From the NCBI GenBank assembly GCA_027485995.1, contig JAIXPW010000192.1, positions 1-64,000 of the forward strand: a DNA stretch of 64,000 bases, written 5' to 3'. Both the position numbers and the translations under genes were made by a program. The notes below the pieces were generated by a model. It searched no databases. It was not told where the DNA came from and saw only the letters and a list, made by a program, of their open reading frames with translations. Below, piece after piece: positions 38,665 to 61,541 of this stretch. This stretch comes from Verrucomicrobiaceae bacterium. GTDB taxonomy: Bacteria; Verrucomicrobiota; Verrucomicrobiia; Verrucomicrobiales; Akkermansiaceae. The first letter of the stretch is position 1. Each line of letters opens with the position of its first letter.

Positions 38665-39435
38665 ATGACGGCAACCGACATCCTTTCCCTTCTCGGCGCG
38701 GCCATGGCGGCGGGCGCGATCAATGCCGTGGCCGGTGGCGGGACGATCCTGACCTTTCCGACCTTGCTGGCTGTCGGCACTCCGGCGGTCATTGCCAACG
38801 CCACCAGCACGGTCGCCCTCGTCATCGGCACCGGTGGTTCGGTCTATGGCTTCCGGAAACACATCGCCGACATCCGCGAATGGCTGGTGCTCTTCGTGCC
38901 GGTGAGCCTGGCGGGCGGCTTGATCGGGAGCTGGCTGCTCACGCGGACCAGCAACGAGGCCTTCTCGAAGCTGGTGCCCTTCCTGATCCTGTTCGCGACG
39001 CTGCTTTTCCTGGTGCAGGGCCTGGTTGCCCGGATGGTGAAAAGGTCCGCAGCGGAGCCGAAGCCGGTGACCGTTCTCTGGCCGGCGATCCTCTTCCAGT
39101 TCCTCGTTTCGATCTATGGCGGCTTCTTCGGTGCAGGCATCGGCATCCTCATGCTGGCCACGTTGGGCTTCATTGGACTGACCGACATCCATCGGATGAA
39201 CGCGCTGAAGAACATCCTCGGCTCGCTCATCAACGTGGTCGCGGCGATCATGTTCATCGCCGGTGGGTTGGTCGATTGGCCGAAAGCGGGTGTGATGACG
39301 ATCGGGGCCATCGCCGGCTATTTCCTCGGCTCCCACTACTCGCAGAAGATCCCGCAGGTCTGGGTGCGGCGGATCGTGTTGATGATCGGCTTCGCGATCT
39401 CGGCGATCACGTTCTACCGGCAGTTCCGGTCATGA
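38665..39435 (+). CDS. TSUP (TauE/SafE-like) membrane permease
   Basis: 256 residues from ATG 38665. About eight membrane segments, with the family hallmarks GAINAVAGGGTILTFPTLLA near the N-terminus and SIYGGFFGAGIGILMLATLG in the second half. Family members export sulfite or organosulfonates or take up related anions. With several sulfatases nearby, handling of sulfur oxyanions is plausible but not shown. Its stop overlaps the start of the following MFS gene by 4 nt (ATGA), so the two are translationally coupled. Confidence 0.88.
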   Translation: MTATDILSLLGAAMAAGAINAVAGGGTILTFPTLLAVGTPAVIANATSTVALVIGTGGSVYGFRKHIADIREWLVLFVPVSLAGGLIGSWLLTRTSNEAFSKLVPFLILFATLLFLVQGLVARMVKRSAAEPKPVTVLWPAILFQFLVSIYGGFFGAGIGILMLATLGFIGLTDIHRMNALKNILGSLINVVAAIMFIAGGLVDWPKAGVMTIGAIAGYFLGSHYSQKIPQVWVRRIVLMIGFAISAITFYRQFRS

Positions 39436-40868
39436 ACGAAGCCACTGCCATCGACCCGGAGCTGGCCAGGACCCAGCGCTATCTTCCGTGGGTTGTGGCG
39501 GTGGCCTTGTTCATGCAGCAGCTCGACAGCACCATCGTCAACACGGCGGTGCCGACGATGGCGGCCTCGCTCGGGGTGGAGTCGCTGAGTTTGAAATCGG
39601 TGCTCACCAGTTATACAATCGCCATCGCGGTCTTCATCCCGATGAGCGGCTGGTTGGCGGATCGCTTCGGAACCAAGCGGGTCTTCGGCCTGGCGGTGTT
39701 GACCTTCACGCTCGGCTCCCTGGCCTGCGGGCTTTCGATGAATGTGCCAATGCTGGTGATTTCCCGCATCCTTCAAGGCATCGGCGCGGCCTTCATGATG
39801 CCGGTGGGACGGATCGCGCTGCTGCGGACCTTTCCGAAATCCGGGATTCTTAGGGCGATGAACTTCGTGATCATCCCCGCGCTGTTAGGTCCGCTGCTCG
39901 GGCCTCTGGTGGGTGGGCTGATCGTCCACTGGCTGCCGTGGCGGATGATCTTCCTGATCAACCTGCCGTTCGGAGTCCTGGGCCTCTGGATGGTCGGTCG
40001 GCACATGCCCGACCATCGTGGCATGAACCGCCAAGCGCTGGATCTTCCCGGTTTCCTGCTGTTTGGATCCGGCATCGCCCTGCTTTCGTGGGTGCTGGAA
40101 ATCTTCGGCGAACACCGCACGAATCCCTCCTTGATCGTTGTGTCCGGATCGGCATCGCTGTTGCTGCTCGCAGGCTATGCGTGGCATGCACGACGGGCGA
40201 TGTCTCCGCTGCTCGCGGTCGGTCTTTTCCAGCATCGCACCTTCCGCATCTCGGTCATCGGCGGCTTCGTCACGCGGCTGGGCATCAGCGGAATGCCTTT
40301 CCTGCTGCCGCTGCTCTATCAACTTGGGATGGGCTTTTCTTCATGGCAGGCCGGGCTGCTCGTGATGCCTCAGGCGATCGCCGCCATCTCGATGAAATTG
40401 CTGGTGGGACGGATTCTTGAAAAGCTCGGTCATCGGCGCGTGCTGCTGTTCAACACCGTGCTGATCGGTCTGATGATTGCGGCATTCTCACAGGTCGGAC
40501 CCGGAACGCCGGTCTGGGTGATCCTGCTTTTCAGTCTGGCCCAGGGCTCGGTCTCTGCGCTTCAGTTTACCGCGATGAATTCACTGGCCTACTCGGACAC
40601 CTCCGATGCCGAGGCCAGCGACGCCAGCACGCTCGCCAGCACCGCCCAGCAACTTTCGATCAGCTTCGGCATCGCCTTCGCGTCGTTGGTGACGGCTGCG
40701 TTTCTCGGTGGAATCAACCGCTCCGATGCCGTGACGCTGGTGCCTGCGCTCCATCGGGCCTATCTGCTCCTGGGCGGCGTGACGCTTGCCAGTTCCTTCA
40801 CCTTCCTCATGTTGAAAAGGAATGATGGTGCGAATGTCAGCGGCCATCAGGAAGCCGAAGGCTCTTGA
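39432..40868 (+). CDS. DHA2-type MFS efflux transporter
   Basis: 478 residues with about 14 hydrophobic helices. Motif A-like SGWLADRFGTKRVFG, LQGIGAAFMMPVGR and the early QQLDSTIVNTAVPTMAASLG are signatures of the 14-helix drug:H+ antiporters (EmrB/DHA2). It probably exports a small hydrophobic compound. It is coupled by a 4-nt overlap to the TSUP permease gene and converges on the Gre-like gene with 12 nt between stops. The TetR gene about 0.8 kb downstream could regulate it, which is inference. Confidence 0.88.
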   Translation: MNEATAIDPELARTQRYLPWVVAVALFMQQLDSTIVNTAVPTMAASLGVESLSLKSVLTSYTIAIAVFIPMSGWLADRFGTKRVFGLAVLTFTLGSLACGLSMNVPMLVISRILQGIGAAFMMPVGRIALLRTFPKSGILRAMNFVIIPALLGPLLGPLVGGLIVHWLPWRMIFLINLPFGVLGLWMVGRHMPDHRGMNRQALDLPGFLLFGSGIALLSWVLEIFGEHRTNPSLIVVSGSASLLLLAGYAWHARRAMSPLLAVGLFQHRTFRISVIGGFVTRLGISGMPFLLPLLYQLGMGFSSWQAGLLVMPQAIAAISMKLLVGRILEKLGHRRVLLFNTVLIGLMIAAFSQVGPGTPVWVILLFSLAQGSVSALQFTAMNSLAYSDTSDAEASDASTLASTAQQLSISFGIAFASLVTAAFLGGINRSDAVTLVPALHRAYLLLGGVTLASSFTFLMLKRNDGANVSGHQEAEGS

Positions 40869-56933: not shown

Positions 56934-57213
56934 TTGGACGAAGCGGATGGTGAAGGGGAAGGGGGCGTTCTCCGCGTTGGGGTCACGTCGCCAAACTGCC
57001 CACGCGCAAGGCGGAATGGATTCACGACTGTCGATTGCTGGCCTGATCCAAGGAGTTCTGATGGCCCGCCCGAGGTATCTCACGCCCCGCGCCTTCCATA
57101 TTGGAAATCCGAAATTCGAAATTCGAAATTCTTCCTGATATCCGCCCCGGCAGGTCGTCGCAGAGGATCACCCCCAAAGGCCGAGATATCAACCCGCTGA
57201 CCCCAGAAAATCG
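56934..57213. other. Gap between fabF/thioesterase operon and the small-gene cluster
   Basis: No gene supported. At about 57104-57135 there is a GAAATTC heptamer repeat (GAAATCCGAAATTCGAAATT and onward). On the minus strand about 57142-57180 reads VILCDDLPG, resembling the first block of sulfatases, perhaps a scrap of one. This is the left boundary of the AT-richer region. Confidence 0.45.
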
Positions 57214-57783
57214 TTGTCAAATCAAGGATCTCAGCCATCGTGGACCCAAGTGGGAATCAGCGGATATCAGATAGCTAGATCCTACGAACAAAGACTGTTC
57301 GCCAGAGATCATATGCACATCAAAGACGCCGGTTTCCCGTTTAGACAAGAGTCCGTAACCGACGCGTTTGTCTTACTTTGGGGCGAGACAGGATGTTTTG
57401 CCTTTCTTGCGACAGAGCAGCGCACAGATGGATTGTGGCACGACTGCGGGTGGGCTGTATTCCGAAGCAAGTCGATCTTGCAGATGAAACACGGACATCC
57501 AAATGATGAGGCATTTCCCGGACATCCACTGTATCAACAAGGCCTTGATCAGTTCGACATCGCAGAAGTGGAAGGTTCACCTTGGATGGACGAGATCAAG
57601 AAGGTCAACGCGGTGCAGTTTCCATCCTCAACCGACGGCGACTGGCGATGCCGCCACCACATATTCCCGCTGAAGGAAGTCACACTTGAAGTGCTGTGGC
57701 GCGATTTCGACCACGAAGTCCAGAATCGCTCTTTTAATGAAGTAAGGCAGTCTATGATCGACTGGATGGTCAATAATCAATAA
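57214..57783 (+). CDS. Hypothetical protein, first gene of small-gene array
   Basis: 189 residues if begun at TTG 57214; ATG 57313 (MHIKDAGFPFRQESVTDAF) would give 156. No signal or membrane segment. It contains FVLLWGETGCFAFLATEQRT, WAVFRSKSILQMKHGHPNDE and RCRHHIFPLKEVTLEVLWRD. I do not recognise the family; it has the look of small cytoplasmic immunity-like proteins. Base composition is lower in GC than fabF upstream. It is followed 3 nt after its stop by the attC-like sequence A. Confidence 0.55.
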   Translation: MSNQGSQPSWTQVGISGYQIARSYEQRLFARDHMHIKDAGFPFRQESVTDAFVLLWGETGCFAFLATEQRTDGLWHDCGWAVFRSKSILQMKHGHPNDEAFPGHPLYQQGLDQFDIAEVEGSPWMDEIKKVNAVQFPSSTDGDWRCRHHIFPLKEVTLEVLWRDFDHEVQNRSFNEVRQSMIDWMVNNQ

Positions 57784-57786
57784 GAA

Positions 57787-57915
57787 GGCGAACAAGACGA
57801 GACACAGCAACCCCTATCAGCCGCCCTGTTTTCATGCTCTTCCGTAGTTTCAACCCTAACCCCGTGATCGACGCTCGCCCTCGCTGATAGGGGTGCGTGC
57901 TCTTTGACGTTCTGA
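57787..57915 (+). repeat. attC-like site A
   Basis: Starts GGCGAACAAGACGAG and ends CTCTTTGACGTTCTGA. Inside is a perfect 12-bp inverted pair ACCCCTATCAGC (57810-57821) and GCTGATAGGGGT (57883-57894). The AAC...GTT outer ends and the inner stem fit the general build of integron recombination sites, though the last seven bases (GTTCTGA) miss the GTTRRRY consensus. It occupies almost the whole gap between two small genes. Confidence 0.4.
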
Positions 57916-57921
57916 AAGAAA

Positions 57922-58284
57922 ATGAAACGCATGATTCCAACGCTTCTCTTCGGTGTATTCCTTGGGGTTGGAGGAACACTGTTGGCGCTTCCTGCGTTGG
58001 AGAGAGCACGTGAGCGAGGGATCGTTCAAGAGGCAACTGATGATTTCGGTCTTCCAGCACTACCAGCGAACGCGAGCGTTACTTACGCATACCACAACGA
58101 TCAGATTGTCCTCGAATGGTATGGATTCGAGTTCCAAACCACACCTGAACAAGCCACGAATTGGAAGACAGAGGCAGAAGCATTGAATTCAAAGAAAGCA
58201 CTTGGTGACGGCTATATAGACTTCGATTGCAAACTTAGGAACGGCTACTTTGTTGAAGTGCGCCTGTTCGAGTCCCATAAATGA
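57922..58284 (+). CDS. Small membrane-anchored hypothetical protein
   Basis: 120 residues. N-terminal hydrophobic helix MIPTLLFGVFLGVGGTLLAL, then a soluble domain (VTYAYHNDQIVLEWYGFEFQ, YIDFDCKLRNGYFVEVRLFE). No known family was recognised. It begins 6 nt after attC-like site A and ends 6 nt before site B, as a cassette gene would. Confidence 0.55.
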   Translation: MKRMIPTLLFGVFLGVGGTLLALPALERARERGIVQEATDDFGLPALPANASVTYAYHNDQIVLEWYGFEFQTTPEQATNWKTEAEALNSKKALGDGYIDFDCKLRNGYFVEVRLFESHK

Positions 58285-58290
58285 AACATT

Positions 58291-58388
58291 GGCAGAACAA
58301 TCTGCGCCTCCTAACGGGCCATAAGCAATCTGATCTCATTCCAATTTCAATCCAATCGCGCCCGTAGGAGCGCTCTTAACGTTGAGCC
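58291..58388 (+). repeat. attC-like site B (best match)
   Basis: Outer ends GGCAGAAC (58291-58298) and GTTGAGCC (58381-58388) pair at 6 of 8 positions, and GTTGAGC fits the integron core GTTRRRY. The inner arms GCGCcTCCTAaCGGGC (58304-58319) and GCCCGTAGGAGCGC (58360-58373) pair perfectly except for two extra unpaired bases on one arm, the extrahelical-base feature of attC hairpins. The middle shares CATAAGC and CAATTTCA with site C. Confidence 0.5.
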
Positions 58389-58399
58389 AGAGAATTGTC

Positions 58400-58867
58400 A
58401 TGCCATTCGAACCACCCATCGGCACGACTTTCGCGTCCGAAAACGATGCACGACTGGATGAGGTGATTCAGATCGCCACCCACATTCTTCCATTCCTCCA
58501 AGGTCAGAGCGCCGGTCCGGTTGGATGGAGCCGCTATGACGACTGGCTTGAACATGATGGTCTGCATTTTGCCGGTCCGCAGATTGAATTTTCGGATGTC
58601 TTTCGGTTGTTGGGATCCCCTCGATCACTTTTTGAGGCTACTCCCACGGATGAACTCGTCTGCATTGGGATCGGACCGGATTTCAACGGTTGGTATCTCC
58701 GGGCTCATGCACATTGGAATTCCGAGGATACGGGTTTGGTTGGGATGATTTCCATTACGATGCAGCCCGAGATCGCCAGTCTTTTCCGTGAACGAGCCCT
58801 GGATCGTATTTCTGAGTTCTTGTCAGAGCATGAATCCCTGAGCTACTTTAGCCGCATCACGGTATAG
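58400..58867 (+). CDS. Hypothetical protein
   Basis: 155 residues from ATG 58400 (MPFEPPIGTTFASENDARLD); an in-frame TTG at 58382 lies within site B and is unlikely. Soluble and acidic, with WSRYDDWLEHDGLHFAGPQI and IGIGPDFNGWYLRAHAHWNS. No motif I can name. It lies between attC-like sites B and C, 12 nt after B. Confidence 0.5.
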   Translation: MPFEPPIGTTFASENDARLDEVIQIATHILPFLQGQSAGPVGWSRYDDWLEHDGLHFAGPQIEFSDVFRLLGSPRSLFEATPTDELVCIGIGPDFNGWYLRAHAHWNSEDTGLVGMISITMQPEIASLFRERALDRISEFLSEHESLSYFSRITV

Positions 58868-58876
58868 AACCAAGAT

Positions 58877-58967
58877 CCCCAACAAGTCGTGGCGCACCGG
58901 CCGGCATAAGCTTTTCAATTTCACTTCAACATCCTTTCAACAGCGCCGGAGGGCGCACATTTAGCAC
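58877..58967 (+). repeat. attC-like site C
   Basis: Starts CCCCAACAAGTCGTGG. Arms GTGgCGCaCCGGC (58889-58901) and GCCGGAGGGCGCAC (58945-58958) pair with unpaired extras. The loop shares CATAAGC and CAATTTCA with site B. The 3' end reads TTTAGCAC rather than a clear GTTRRRY, so it may be degenerate. It fills most of the gap between two small genes. Confidence 0.4.
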
Positions 58968-58985
58968 TGACAATCGAATACCCAT

Positions 58986-59216
58986 ATGTCACTCAAATAC
59001 ACTCATCGCCCTGGAGGATCGGCATGCTGCCCTGAATGCAAGGAGGCTATCTCTCGACAAGCGAACATCTGCCCGCATTGCCGTTCGGATTTGAGCACCA
59101 ATGAGGAGTGGCAGGCACAGAAGGAGAACAGTGCCGGAGGGTGTGCCGCACTCGTGATCCTTGGCATCGTCTGTACGGGAATTGCTGCCTACTCCCTTCG
59201 GGGCTTCATCGGATGA
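58986..59216 (+). CDS. Small zinc-ribbon membrane protein
   Basis: 76 residues. N-terminal zinc ribbon with two CxxC pairs (CCPECKEAISRQANICPHCR), then one membrane helix (CAALVILGIVCTGIAAYSL). Resembles short zinc-ribbon domain proteins of unknown function. It lies between attC-like sites C and D. Confidence 0.65.
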   Translation: MSLKYTHRPGGSACCPECKEAISRQANICPHCRSDLSTNEEWQAQKENSAGGCAALVILGIVCTGIAAYSLRGFIG

Positions 59217-59257
59217 TCGAACTCAGGGTCAGCGTCAGGCCAATGTTGGCCCAGAAA

Positions 59258-59337
59258 GAACAAGCTGTGCGTGGCGGACGGCGGGAGGGACATTTTTCAG
59301 GTCGGACCTTGATCTCGCCGGTGCCACCAATTCCCCT
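59258..59337 (+). repeat. Possible attC-like site D (weak)
   Basis: Starts GAACAAGCTGTGCGTGG, like sites A-C. GTGGCGGACGGCG pairs loosely with CGCCGGTGCCAC. No GTT is found at the right end. It is included only because it sits at the equivalent place between two small genes. Confidence 0.22.
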
Positions 59338-59778
59338 ATGATCCAAATGAGGAAGAAAACTGCACTGCTGCTCGGCTTGAACCTTCTGGCAGGCGGCATC
59401 GGCATCTGGCTTGGCAGGGAATCAGCTCCGGTCAAGACCATCGAGATCAGTGGCAGTTGCATTTTCGTCACATGCGGAGGCGGCAATTACCCGAAAGAAG
59501 CATTCACAACGGTGAACGAAGAACTTCCGGAGAGACTGGATTCTCTCCTGGGCGAGAACGCCCACTCAGACCATCTTGTTCTGGTGACTCCGGTGCCGTC
59601 CGGTTATGACGTCAATATGGTGGGTCTTGCGGGGTCGAAGTTGTGGGATAAGTCGGTTCAGCATGAGCTGACCGAATGGATTGCCCAGCGCATGGATGCC
59701 GTTCAACTGAGCACCCCCGCCAGAGTCGAGTCAGGCGCTGATGGCAAGATGCCGGAAGCGGTTCAACCACTCCACTGA
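59338..59778 (+). CDS. Small exported or membrane-anchored hypothetical protein
   Basis: 146 residues from ATG 59338 (MIQMRKKTALLLGLNLLAGG). N-terminal hydrophobic segment followed by IGIWLGRESAPV, then a soluble domain (IEISGSCIFVTCGGGNYPKE, ELPERLDSLLGENAHSDHLV, WDKSVQHELTEWIAQRMDAV). Family unknown. It is part of the same plus-strand array of small genes. The 58-nt gap after it holds a small hairpin (CCCGC ... GCGGG near 59791-59812). Confidence 0.5.
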   Translation: MIQMRKKTALLLGLNLLAGGIGIWLGRESAPVKTIEISGSCIFVTCGGGNYPKEAFTTVNEELPERLDSLLGENAHSDHLVLVTPVPSGYDVNMVGLAGSKLWDKSVQHELTEWIAQRMDAVQLSTPARVESGADGKMPEAVQPLH

Positions 59779-59836
59779 CTCACCCCAAGCCCGCGCCCGC
59801 CTTCGCGGGATGTTCCACAGAAAGGAAAGTAGTCCG

Positions 59837-60193
59837 ATGTTTGCCGCCAAGCTGTTCCCTTTGGACCAAGAGGTTCGGATCATTTGTCAGAGAGGGAGGG
59901 GAACTCTCCGATTTCCAGACAAGGTGCTGCTTGAAATGATTCGATTCCGGCAGGATGCAATCTGGCGACGCGGCAGGAATCGATTGAATCGATATTGGGG
60001 CACGTTTGTTTCCGATCAGGGCACCGATCCATTTGGCCCACATGCCCGAGTTGAGATCCATGTGTTGACATCGGTGGTGGGAAGATGGCGCATGGTGGTG
60101 TATTGGAATCCAGAAGTTTCGGCGTGGGCAGGGATGCACCTTCAACTGGATTTCCTGTTGGATTGGCCTTTGAGCTGTGAAGCGGTGTTTTGA
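59837..60193 (+). CDS. Hypothetical protein
   Basis: 118 residues from ATG 59837 (MFAAKLFPLDQEVRIICQRG). No signal peptide. It is rich in aromatic and basic residues (IWRRGRNRLNRYWGTFVSDQ, WRMVVYWNPEVSAWAGMHLQ). The start codon is preceded by AGTCCG, a string also found before the gene at 60936. Function unknown. Confidence 0.45.
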   Translation: MFAAKLFPLDQEVRIICQRGRGTLRFPDKVLLEMIRFRQDAIWRRGRNRLNRYWGTFVSDQGTDPFGPHARVEIHVLTSVVGRWRMVVYWNPEVSAWAGMHLQLDFLLDWPLSCEAVF

Positions 60194-60329
60194 TTGGAGG
60201 CCGCAACCTTCCGGCAGTCAGGGACTGAAATGAGGTAATCACAAGATCCTTGATTGGGATCCGGCGCTCACGTCGCAACCTGAGTTCGGGCTTCCCCCCG
60301 GCGCTCCTAACCCTTTATTGTCCGATTGC

Positions 60330-60824
60330 ATGAGACTTCTCGCGATCTTGATGATTGGAACACTGCTGGCGTCGTGTGTACCTGTTCCACACTGGCAAAC
60401 CTACGCTCCGCCGTACAGTGGAGTGGTGCGCAACCGTCGTTCCGAGCCGGTAGAAGGCGCGATCGTGACCTATCGTTACCGCAACACGCTGGTGATTGAT
60501 CGATGCGTGAGCGGAAGTGACGGCAGCTTCAAACTGAAGCCGTTGAAACAGTTCCACTACCTTGTGTATCTTGGATCACCTGGAGTCGCCCCTTATCCAA
60601 TCGGTCTCATTTACCCATCGTCAGTCCCAAACAGCCTGACGGTGACGGTTGGTGGAAAAGACCACACCTACTGGATTGGATCGAAGATGCATTACACTCA
60701 ACTTGCCGAATCCCTGGCAACCAGAGAAGGACTCTTTCAGACTGGACCTAACAATGGTTGGTTGATGCCGGACGCGAGCTGGATTGGCGAAGCTCCAGTT
60801 GTTCTAGCAGATTGGATCGAATAG
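60330..60824 (+). CDS. Putative lipoprotein with carboxypeptidase-regulatory-like domain
   Basis: 164 residues from ATG 60330. Signal MRLLAILMIGTLLASC ends in a lipobox (LLASC). Residues about 30-80 (YSGVVRNRRSEPVEGAIVTY, CVSGSDGSFKLKPLKQFHYL) resemble the transthyretin/CarboxypepD_reg-like fold (V.....EPV.GA.V.....T...G.F.L). It should be anchored in the envelope. Binding partner unknown. The 136-nt gap upstream contains no clear attC-like hairpin. Confidence 0.6.
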   Translation: MRLLAILMIGTLLASCVPVPHWQTYAPPYSGVVRNRRSEPVEGAIVTYRYRNTLVIDRCVSGSDGSFKLKPLKQFHYLVYLGSPGVAPYPIGLIYPSSVPNSLTVTVGGKDHTYWIGSKMHYTQLAESLATREGLFQTGPNNGWLMPDASWIGEAPVVLADWIE

Positions 60825-60840
60825 CCGAGGTGCAACAACT

Positions 60841-60909
60841 GTCTGAAGCGTTTCGGAACAGCCTGATTTTCGTGATGTTTCGTGGCTTTCGTGGTTTGTA
60901 TTTCAGGAT
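60841..60909 (-). repeat. Second copy of the 69-nt dispersed element
   Basis: Reverse complement matches 44325-44393 at about 60 of 69 positions without gaps, including CTGAAATACAAACCACGAAA and CGAAACGCTTCAGAC. It lies in the gap between two small genes of the array. Confidence 0.85.
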
Positions 60910-60935
60910 TTAAGCCTAATCCTCCGCATAGTCCG

Positions 60936-61541
60936 ATGAATCAAGAATCCCCCAAACTGGTCATCCCAAGGCTCTCAATGGCGCTGCTGGCCTTGCTGTT
61001 GGGGCTCGCGCCTTATGCGATGCAGTTCACGCCATTTGCTGGCATCTATACGCATGGAGCATACAAGGCACCTTACGAGACCGACCCGCTTCTAGCTCAA
61101 CGCATAGGGCTCATTGCGTTTGGCCTTGTGGTGCCAGTGTTGGCGGTCATCGACGTGATCCTCGCAATCGTTCGACGTGCCGGGTGGTTGAGTGTCATTG
61201 CCTGGGTTGAAGCCTGGTTTGCGTGCTTGGTACTGGGCTGGCGTTCGTTCCCGTATTGGGTCGCAGGCGTGTATGCGGTTTATTCGGAGCGCGTGCCAAG
61301 AGCCGACATGGATCCGAAGGGAGTGGTTCCGATCAAGTGGCTGGGCGAGATTTGGGGCACCACCATTCTGCTTTTGTATCCTGTTGCGGTTGTTGTCATC
61401 CCCGTCGGCCTGATTGGCAGTTTGGTTCTCTTTCGTCGCCGGTCTGGGTTCCGTGCGCTGATTCCCGGAGGATGCGCCATGGTCAGCCTGGTGTTTCTGG
61501 TGTGGTTCTCGCCGAATTATGTCGGCTGGTTCATGGATTAA
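60936..61541 (+). CDS. Multi-pass membrane hypothetical protein
   Basis: 201 residues from ATG 60936 (MNQESPKLVIPRLSMALLAL). About five membrane helices (ALLALLLGLAPYAMQF, IGLIAFGLVVPVLAVIDVIL, VIAWVEAWFACLVLGW, TILLLYPVAVVVIPVGLIGS, LIPGGCAMVSLVFLVWF). No family recognised. It is the last gene of the array and converges on hisA. Confidence 0.6.
   Translation: MNQESPKLVIPRLSMALLALLLGLAPYAMQFTPFAGIYTHGAYKAPYETDPLLAQRIGLIAFGLVVPVLAVIDVILAIVRRAGWLSVIAWVEAWFACLVLGWRSFPYWVAGVYAVYSERVPRADMDPKGVVPIKWLGEIWGTTILLLYPVAVVVIPVGLIGSLVLFRRRSGFRALIPGGCAMVSLVFLVWFSPNYVGWFMD

Follow-up and report, generated by a model that had tools for sequence, protein, structure and literature searches.

CALINs are recognised by two or more attC sites less than 4 kb apart with no adjacent integrase, and a complete integron by an intI gene that lies next to an attI site and its cassette array. 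The origin of CALINs is an open question, for which PMC8618304 gives three proposals: off-target insertion, loss of intI, and rearrangement. Integrons in Verrucomicrobiota are already known from the same paper, and according to PMC9024848 few attI sites other than those of class 1 have been well described. Here, we analysed a window of 64,000 nucleotides (the whole stretch of DNA under study, on contig C60) from a lake-type Verrucomicrobiota draft genome of 5.7 Mb (269 contigs, 84% complete). A preliminary description of this window, made from its letters alone, had proposed an integron-like array of eight small genes. The array supported by our analysis comprises three cassettes behind a putative attI (57117-58972), and its features are as follows.

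57117-57296, + strand: attI-like element of type 2, ~170 bp; its last bases are GAACAAAGACT, followed by the crossover G/TT (the slash marks the point of joining)
57297-57303, + strand: crossover box GTTCGCC, the exact complement (7/7) of the attC A R'' box GGCGAAC; TTCGCC forms the first six bases of cassette 1
57298-57909, + strand: gene cassette 1, limited by the attI-like crossover and the G of the R' box of A
57313-57783, + strand: gene 1, ORF of 156 aa, outside known families
57787-57915, + strand: attC site A, R'' GGCGAAC, R' GTTCTGA; 134.6 bits with model R2, E 6e-31, the best site of the genome
57910-58381, + strand: gene cassette 2; R' of A (GTTCTGA) and R'' of B (GCAGAAC) are complementary at 6/7 positions
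57922-58284, + strand: gene 2, ORF of 120 aa with an N-terminal membrane or signal segment, outside known families
58292-58387, + strand: attC site B, R'' GCAGAAC, R' GTTGAGC, its 5' arm with two extrahelical bases
58382-58966, + strand: gene cassette 3, bounded by the B and C crossovers; R' of B and R'' of C match at 5/7 positions, C being decayed
58400-58867, + strand: gene 3, ORF of 155 aa, outside known families
58877-58972, + strand: attC site C, decayed; 59.2 bits with model R3, E 2e-14, core pairs broken
58986-59216, + strand: gene 4, 76 aa, zinc-ribbon and membrane protein (weak Zn_ribbon_3 match), with its ATG 14 bp past site C
59255-59342, + strand: possible attC remnant after gene 4 (junction D), not significant; 5.8 bits with model R2, E 0.58

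Sites A and B have the anatomy of attC: R'' and R' boxes with AAC and GTT cores, inverted arms, an unpaired spacer and extrahelical bases on one arm. Site C lacks the GTT; its crossover core (58966-58968) reads ACT instead, and we therefore regard it as decayed. It matches an intact attC in the IntI array of a relative (nhmmer, E 1e-11). We searched with two covariance models, R2 and R3, whose training sites all lay outside the window, in arrays around IntI of the same genome and of relatives; a model with shortened loops (R1) had fitted the real loops poorly, and R2 and R3 were used in its place. Site B scored 75.6 bits with R3 (E 9e-20) and 30.1 bits with R2. Searches with single sequences (nhmmer) agreed on all three sites, and their matches outside the window with E < 0.001 all fell within integron arrays. 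A separate attC scorer, built on AAC, an unpaired spacer, a stem with extra bases on the 5' arm and GTT, gave 20.2 for A and 17.9 for B, and none of 60 dinucleotide shuffles of the region reached 17. An earlier version of the scorer, which treated the unpaired spacer as mismatch, missed attC sites and was discarded. The sole other window match at the level of A and B is a palindrome (39431-39515) whose score is the same on either strand and whose ends are CATGAAC/GTTCATG. Rfam gave no match at gathering thresholds.

The first three junctions of the preliminary description are thus attC sites at the positions proposed there, each with AACAA after a stop codon, imperfect inverted arms and extra bases on one arm. 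Also borne out were the GTTGAGC of B, the sequences CATAAGC and CAATTTCA common to B and C, and the AT-richer composition of the region (GC 0.50-0.57 versus ~0.61 in the surroundings). Separately, GC drops to 0.41 at 1001-2000 of the window, as against ~0.61 elsewhere. The R' box of B fits GTTRRRY, whereas that of A does not; most R' boxes in this genome read GTTCNNN, including those beside IntI. At the following four junctions (D-G), the covariance models found no significant attC, the best being D with ~6 bits, and a 15-bit match (59725-59818) partly coincides with the end of gene 5, and its pairs are broken. Hence, genes 4-8 are not demonstrated as cassettes, and the proposed array of eight shrinks to three. 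Gene 4 may be a fourth cassette that has lost its own attC, the covariance models having found no significant site at its end.

The first bases of an integron cassette complement the R'' box of its own attC, which reflects closure of the cassette as a circle. We observed such complementarity at 7/7, 6/7 and 5/7 positions for cassettes 1, 2 and 3, respectively. Since cassette 1 starts at GTTCGCC (57297), the start of gene 1 shifts to the ATG at 57313; the start proposed earlier, 57214, falls inside the attI-like element, the cassette itself beginning after G57297. The left edges of other clusters were placed by the same closure rule and proved alike. Searches of Pfam, NCBIfam and PADLOC with the cassette genes returned only weak matches, zinc-ribbon for gene 4 and carboxypeptidase-regulatory for gene 7, and returned nothing for genes 1 and 2. 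We found no plasmid relative of gene 1. The preliminary description had named three outcomes that would speak against it: a lack of attC hits, a genome devoid of IntI, and stable gene content. None of these was seen: the attC models hit A-C, the genome encodes an IntI, and among the 72 other species of the genus searched gene 3 had no match and gene 1 a single weak one (34%).

Both flanks of the window array are complete, with fabF and a thioesterase gene on one side and hisA on the other; neither contains intI, and the integron integrase model TIGR02249 has no match on C60. The genome, however, encodes an IntI on another contig, C218 (L009:7562-8599), which scores 385.8 bits (curated cut-off, 265) and is full length, with a tyrosine-recombinase domain. 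In the usual integron layout, intI points away from the array. C218 carries a complete integron in which nine attC-like sites trail intI on the same strand; hence, intI and array are co-directional. The intI gene lies upstream of the array, with attI 3' of it, and attI recurs 3' of intI in most of the relatives' IntI loci that we checked. Since a complete integron lies on C218 and none by the window array, we classify the latter as a CALIN. The preliminary description had seen no integrase, which holds for C60 but not for the genome, and had overlooked the attI-like element. It had offered two readings, a CALIN and the distal portion of an array; the first fits and the second fails because the array has an attI-like head of its own. 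The earlier observation is therefore confirmed in part, and its CALIN interpretation is supported.

Partial intI copies are found at the starts of contigs C263 and C119. These two partial integrases (L011:1-483 and L012:1-570) belong to a second integron-integrase family and share ~41% and 35% identity with the IntI of C218; that on C119 has a 29-residue insertion. We found no attC in the 16-20 kb adjoining them. Named relatives with a similar IntI are mostly Akkermansiaceae, Luteolibacter and other Verrucomicrobiota metagenome assemblies. Single-contig genomes of the genus and the order (L044 of G003; L042 and L051 of G029) contain dense attC arrays with near-identical repeated sites.

Across the genome, we counted 127 attC sites, which form 49 clusters and are distributed over 44 contigs. 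The census combined model searches with stretches of genome sequence, and its counts are lower bounds because only two covariance models were used. All multi-site clusters (27/27) are co-oriented. The R' box of one site is complementary at all seven positions to the R'' box of the next in 43 of 64 neighbour pairs (mean 6.36), as against a mean of 5.25 (sd 0.095) with shuffled partners.

The element at the head of the window array belongs to a dispersed family, for which BLAST gave 24 matches in this genome including the window copy, the others being 71-89% identical. Nearly all type-2 copies with enough contig beyond them head an attC array on the same strand, the clear exception being C119:52186. 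Seen from the clusters, ~26 are preceded on their own strand by an attI-like element, in most cases at a distance of one cassette. We aligned 28 type-2 copies in register; identity is high up to GTT and ~0.25, the random level, beyond +20 and before about -170. Both attI-like families (28 and 37 aligned copies) are conserved up to GTT and then drop to ~0.25, with a left fade near -170. Being conserved to GTT and random thereafter, they have the profile of an attachment site that takes unrelated cassettes. We found no intI adjoining a type-2 element anywhere. Among 73 species, type 2 is confined to this one and its two closest relatives apart from a single weak match, and the copies of the sister species also head attC arrays. 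We found no sigma-70 consensus promoter in the element. At three loci (L125, L126 and L154; G000:C175, C176 and C58), tandem single cassettes are interspersed with attI-like elements (in the order attC, attI, cassette, attC), and C175 and C176 have in common a longer repeat that lies between the units. This layout may bear on the spread of attI copies.

The second family, type 1, immediately follows the 3' end of intI on C218, as it does in most relatives' IntI loci, and is likewise dispersed without intI. It is present in 16 of 73 species, three of which have at least ten copies. In relatives, truncated 3' ends of intI stand just upstream of certain solo type-1 copies (for example, G043:C211, C123 and C205, and loci L196 and L204), which suggests progressive loss of intI.

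The strongest evidence comes from orthologous intI-less loci in sister species. At C34, the source genome and its sisters G023 and G011 are 96% identical to 13 nt past the crossover and then differ, ~4.9 kb of intervening DNA in the source genome facing ~1 kb in the sisters before the right flank resumes. At C196, the source genome and G023 are 94% identical as far as 4 nt beyond the crossover, and from there on their cassettes differ. Thus, at both loci a conserved sequence ends at G/TT and is followed by different inserted cassettes, as expected of an attI. The IntI locus shows the same pattern, with a cassette difference at the crossover between sister species. Since the cassettes differ at the crossover of intI-less loci that are otherwise 94-96% identical, we conclude that these platforms changed after the species split. 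We found no orthologue of the window element in the sister species, and hence we infer use of this copy from its family. Homology of the sisters to the window stops at 56981-57009, past the thioesterase gene, and resumes at hisA; because these two sides lie on different contigs in the sisters, no empty site is definable. One sister has an attI-like site and a single cassette beside hisA (L074:2774-3446; G011:C199), and the other has neither; hisA also bounds the region of the window.

Comparison of the sequences demonstrates the sites, their exact boundary, closure, dispersal and crossover-exact cassette differences at orthologous intI-less loci. We consider it likely that 57117-58972 is an intI-less platform, an attI-like element with three cassettes and one of many such platforms, filled by an IntI encoded elsewhere. 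With somewhat less assurance, we favour the broader reading that this lineage runs a distributed integron: instead of one array, an amplified, intI-less type-2 attI provides twenty or more platforms that one or two integrases fill in trans. Cassettes would arrive as circles, and an IntI encoded elsewhere, the intact C218 copy being the candidate, would join their attC to the attI-like G/TT. Most probably the dispersed sites are served in trans by IntI made from C218 or from another copy, although this step, like the cognate integrase of type 2, the supply of a promoter by the element and the mode of its spread, is deduced. An intI gene beside some type-2 copies may be missing from the assembly, since the genome is a draft of 269 contigs and 84% completeness.

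If instead each dispersed attI-like element had lost an adjacent intI, the arrays would be ordinary CALINs formed by decay, and dead relics. The decayed state of window site C is in keeping with this, as are the truncated intI ends upstream of solo type-1 copies in relatives; because those copies keep 3' pieces of intI, they arose with an integrase and loss contributes there. For type 2, however, the upstream sequence examined has no intI match, homology among the copies fades near -170, and sites A and B are intact. Cassettes also changed in the sister species at loci without intI. We therefore regard general decay as possible but doubtful. It is far less probable that IntI inserted the cassettes off target at chance genomic sites (attG) with no dedicated attachment element. 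Such insertion is a known route to CALINs (proposals cited in PMC8618304; attG work cited in PMC12444791), but chance sites would not carry the ~170 bp to the left of the crossover that are conserved among many copies, both here and in the sister species. This contradicts attG insertion for clusters that have the element; it could hold where we found none, for example on C32, C92 and C106. Least credible of all, to the point of being nearly dismissible, is that the junctions are a dispersed palindromic repeat of REP or MITE type, or terminators after unrelated genes. They do have imperfect inverted arms and many copies per genome, and single-site folding is only modestly better than that of shuffled sequences, with weak z-scores. 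Yet the sites share attC anatomy, follow IntI in rows on its own strand and are co-oriented within clusters, and their neighbours obey cassette closure, for which repeats or terminators would have no reason.

The preferred reading, that dedicated attachment sites scattered over the genome receive cassettes in trans, indicates another route to CALINs, suggested by the conserved heads together with the cassette differences between sister species. Two attI families with dozens of copies are also added to the scant record of attI outside class 1, and the type-2 element offers a concrete sequence with which use in trans can be tested. We found no report of a conserved, intI-less attI head repeated over a genome in the literature searched, which was mostly outside subscription journals, and we make no firm claim to priority.

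As in other CALINs, the window has two intact attC sites and one decayed site within 1.2 kb, in one orientation, with small proteins and no intI nearby; it differs in that the array opens at a conserved attI-like element common to many arrays of the genome, a head that lies outside the CALIN definition. It resembles the sedentary chromosomal integrons of C218 and relatives in its attC families, the boundary form ACT/GTT and an array read away from attI, but it lacks intI, and its type 2 and the intI-linked type 1 are separate sequence families. Insertion at attG likewise places cassettes away from the integrase gene and assumes an integrase that acts in trans; attG sites, however, are non-classical, neither attC nor attI, and spread over many loci, whereas here we see a long conserved element. 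The CALINs of Xanthomonas, too, are cassette clusters away from the intI locus, but the accessible text of PMC12444791 describes seven loci across species and mentions no common attI head, whereas this one draft genome contains 49 clusters, about half of them with an attI-like head.
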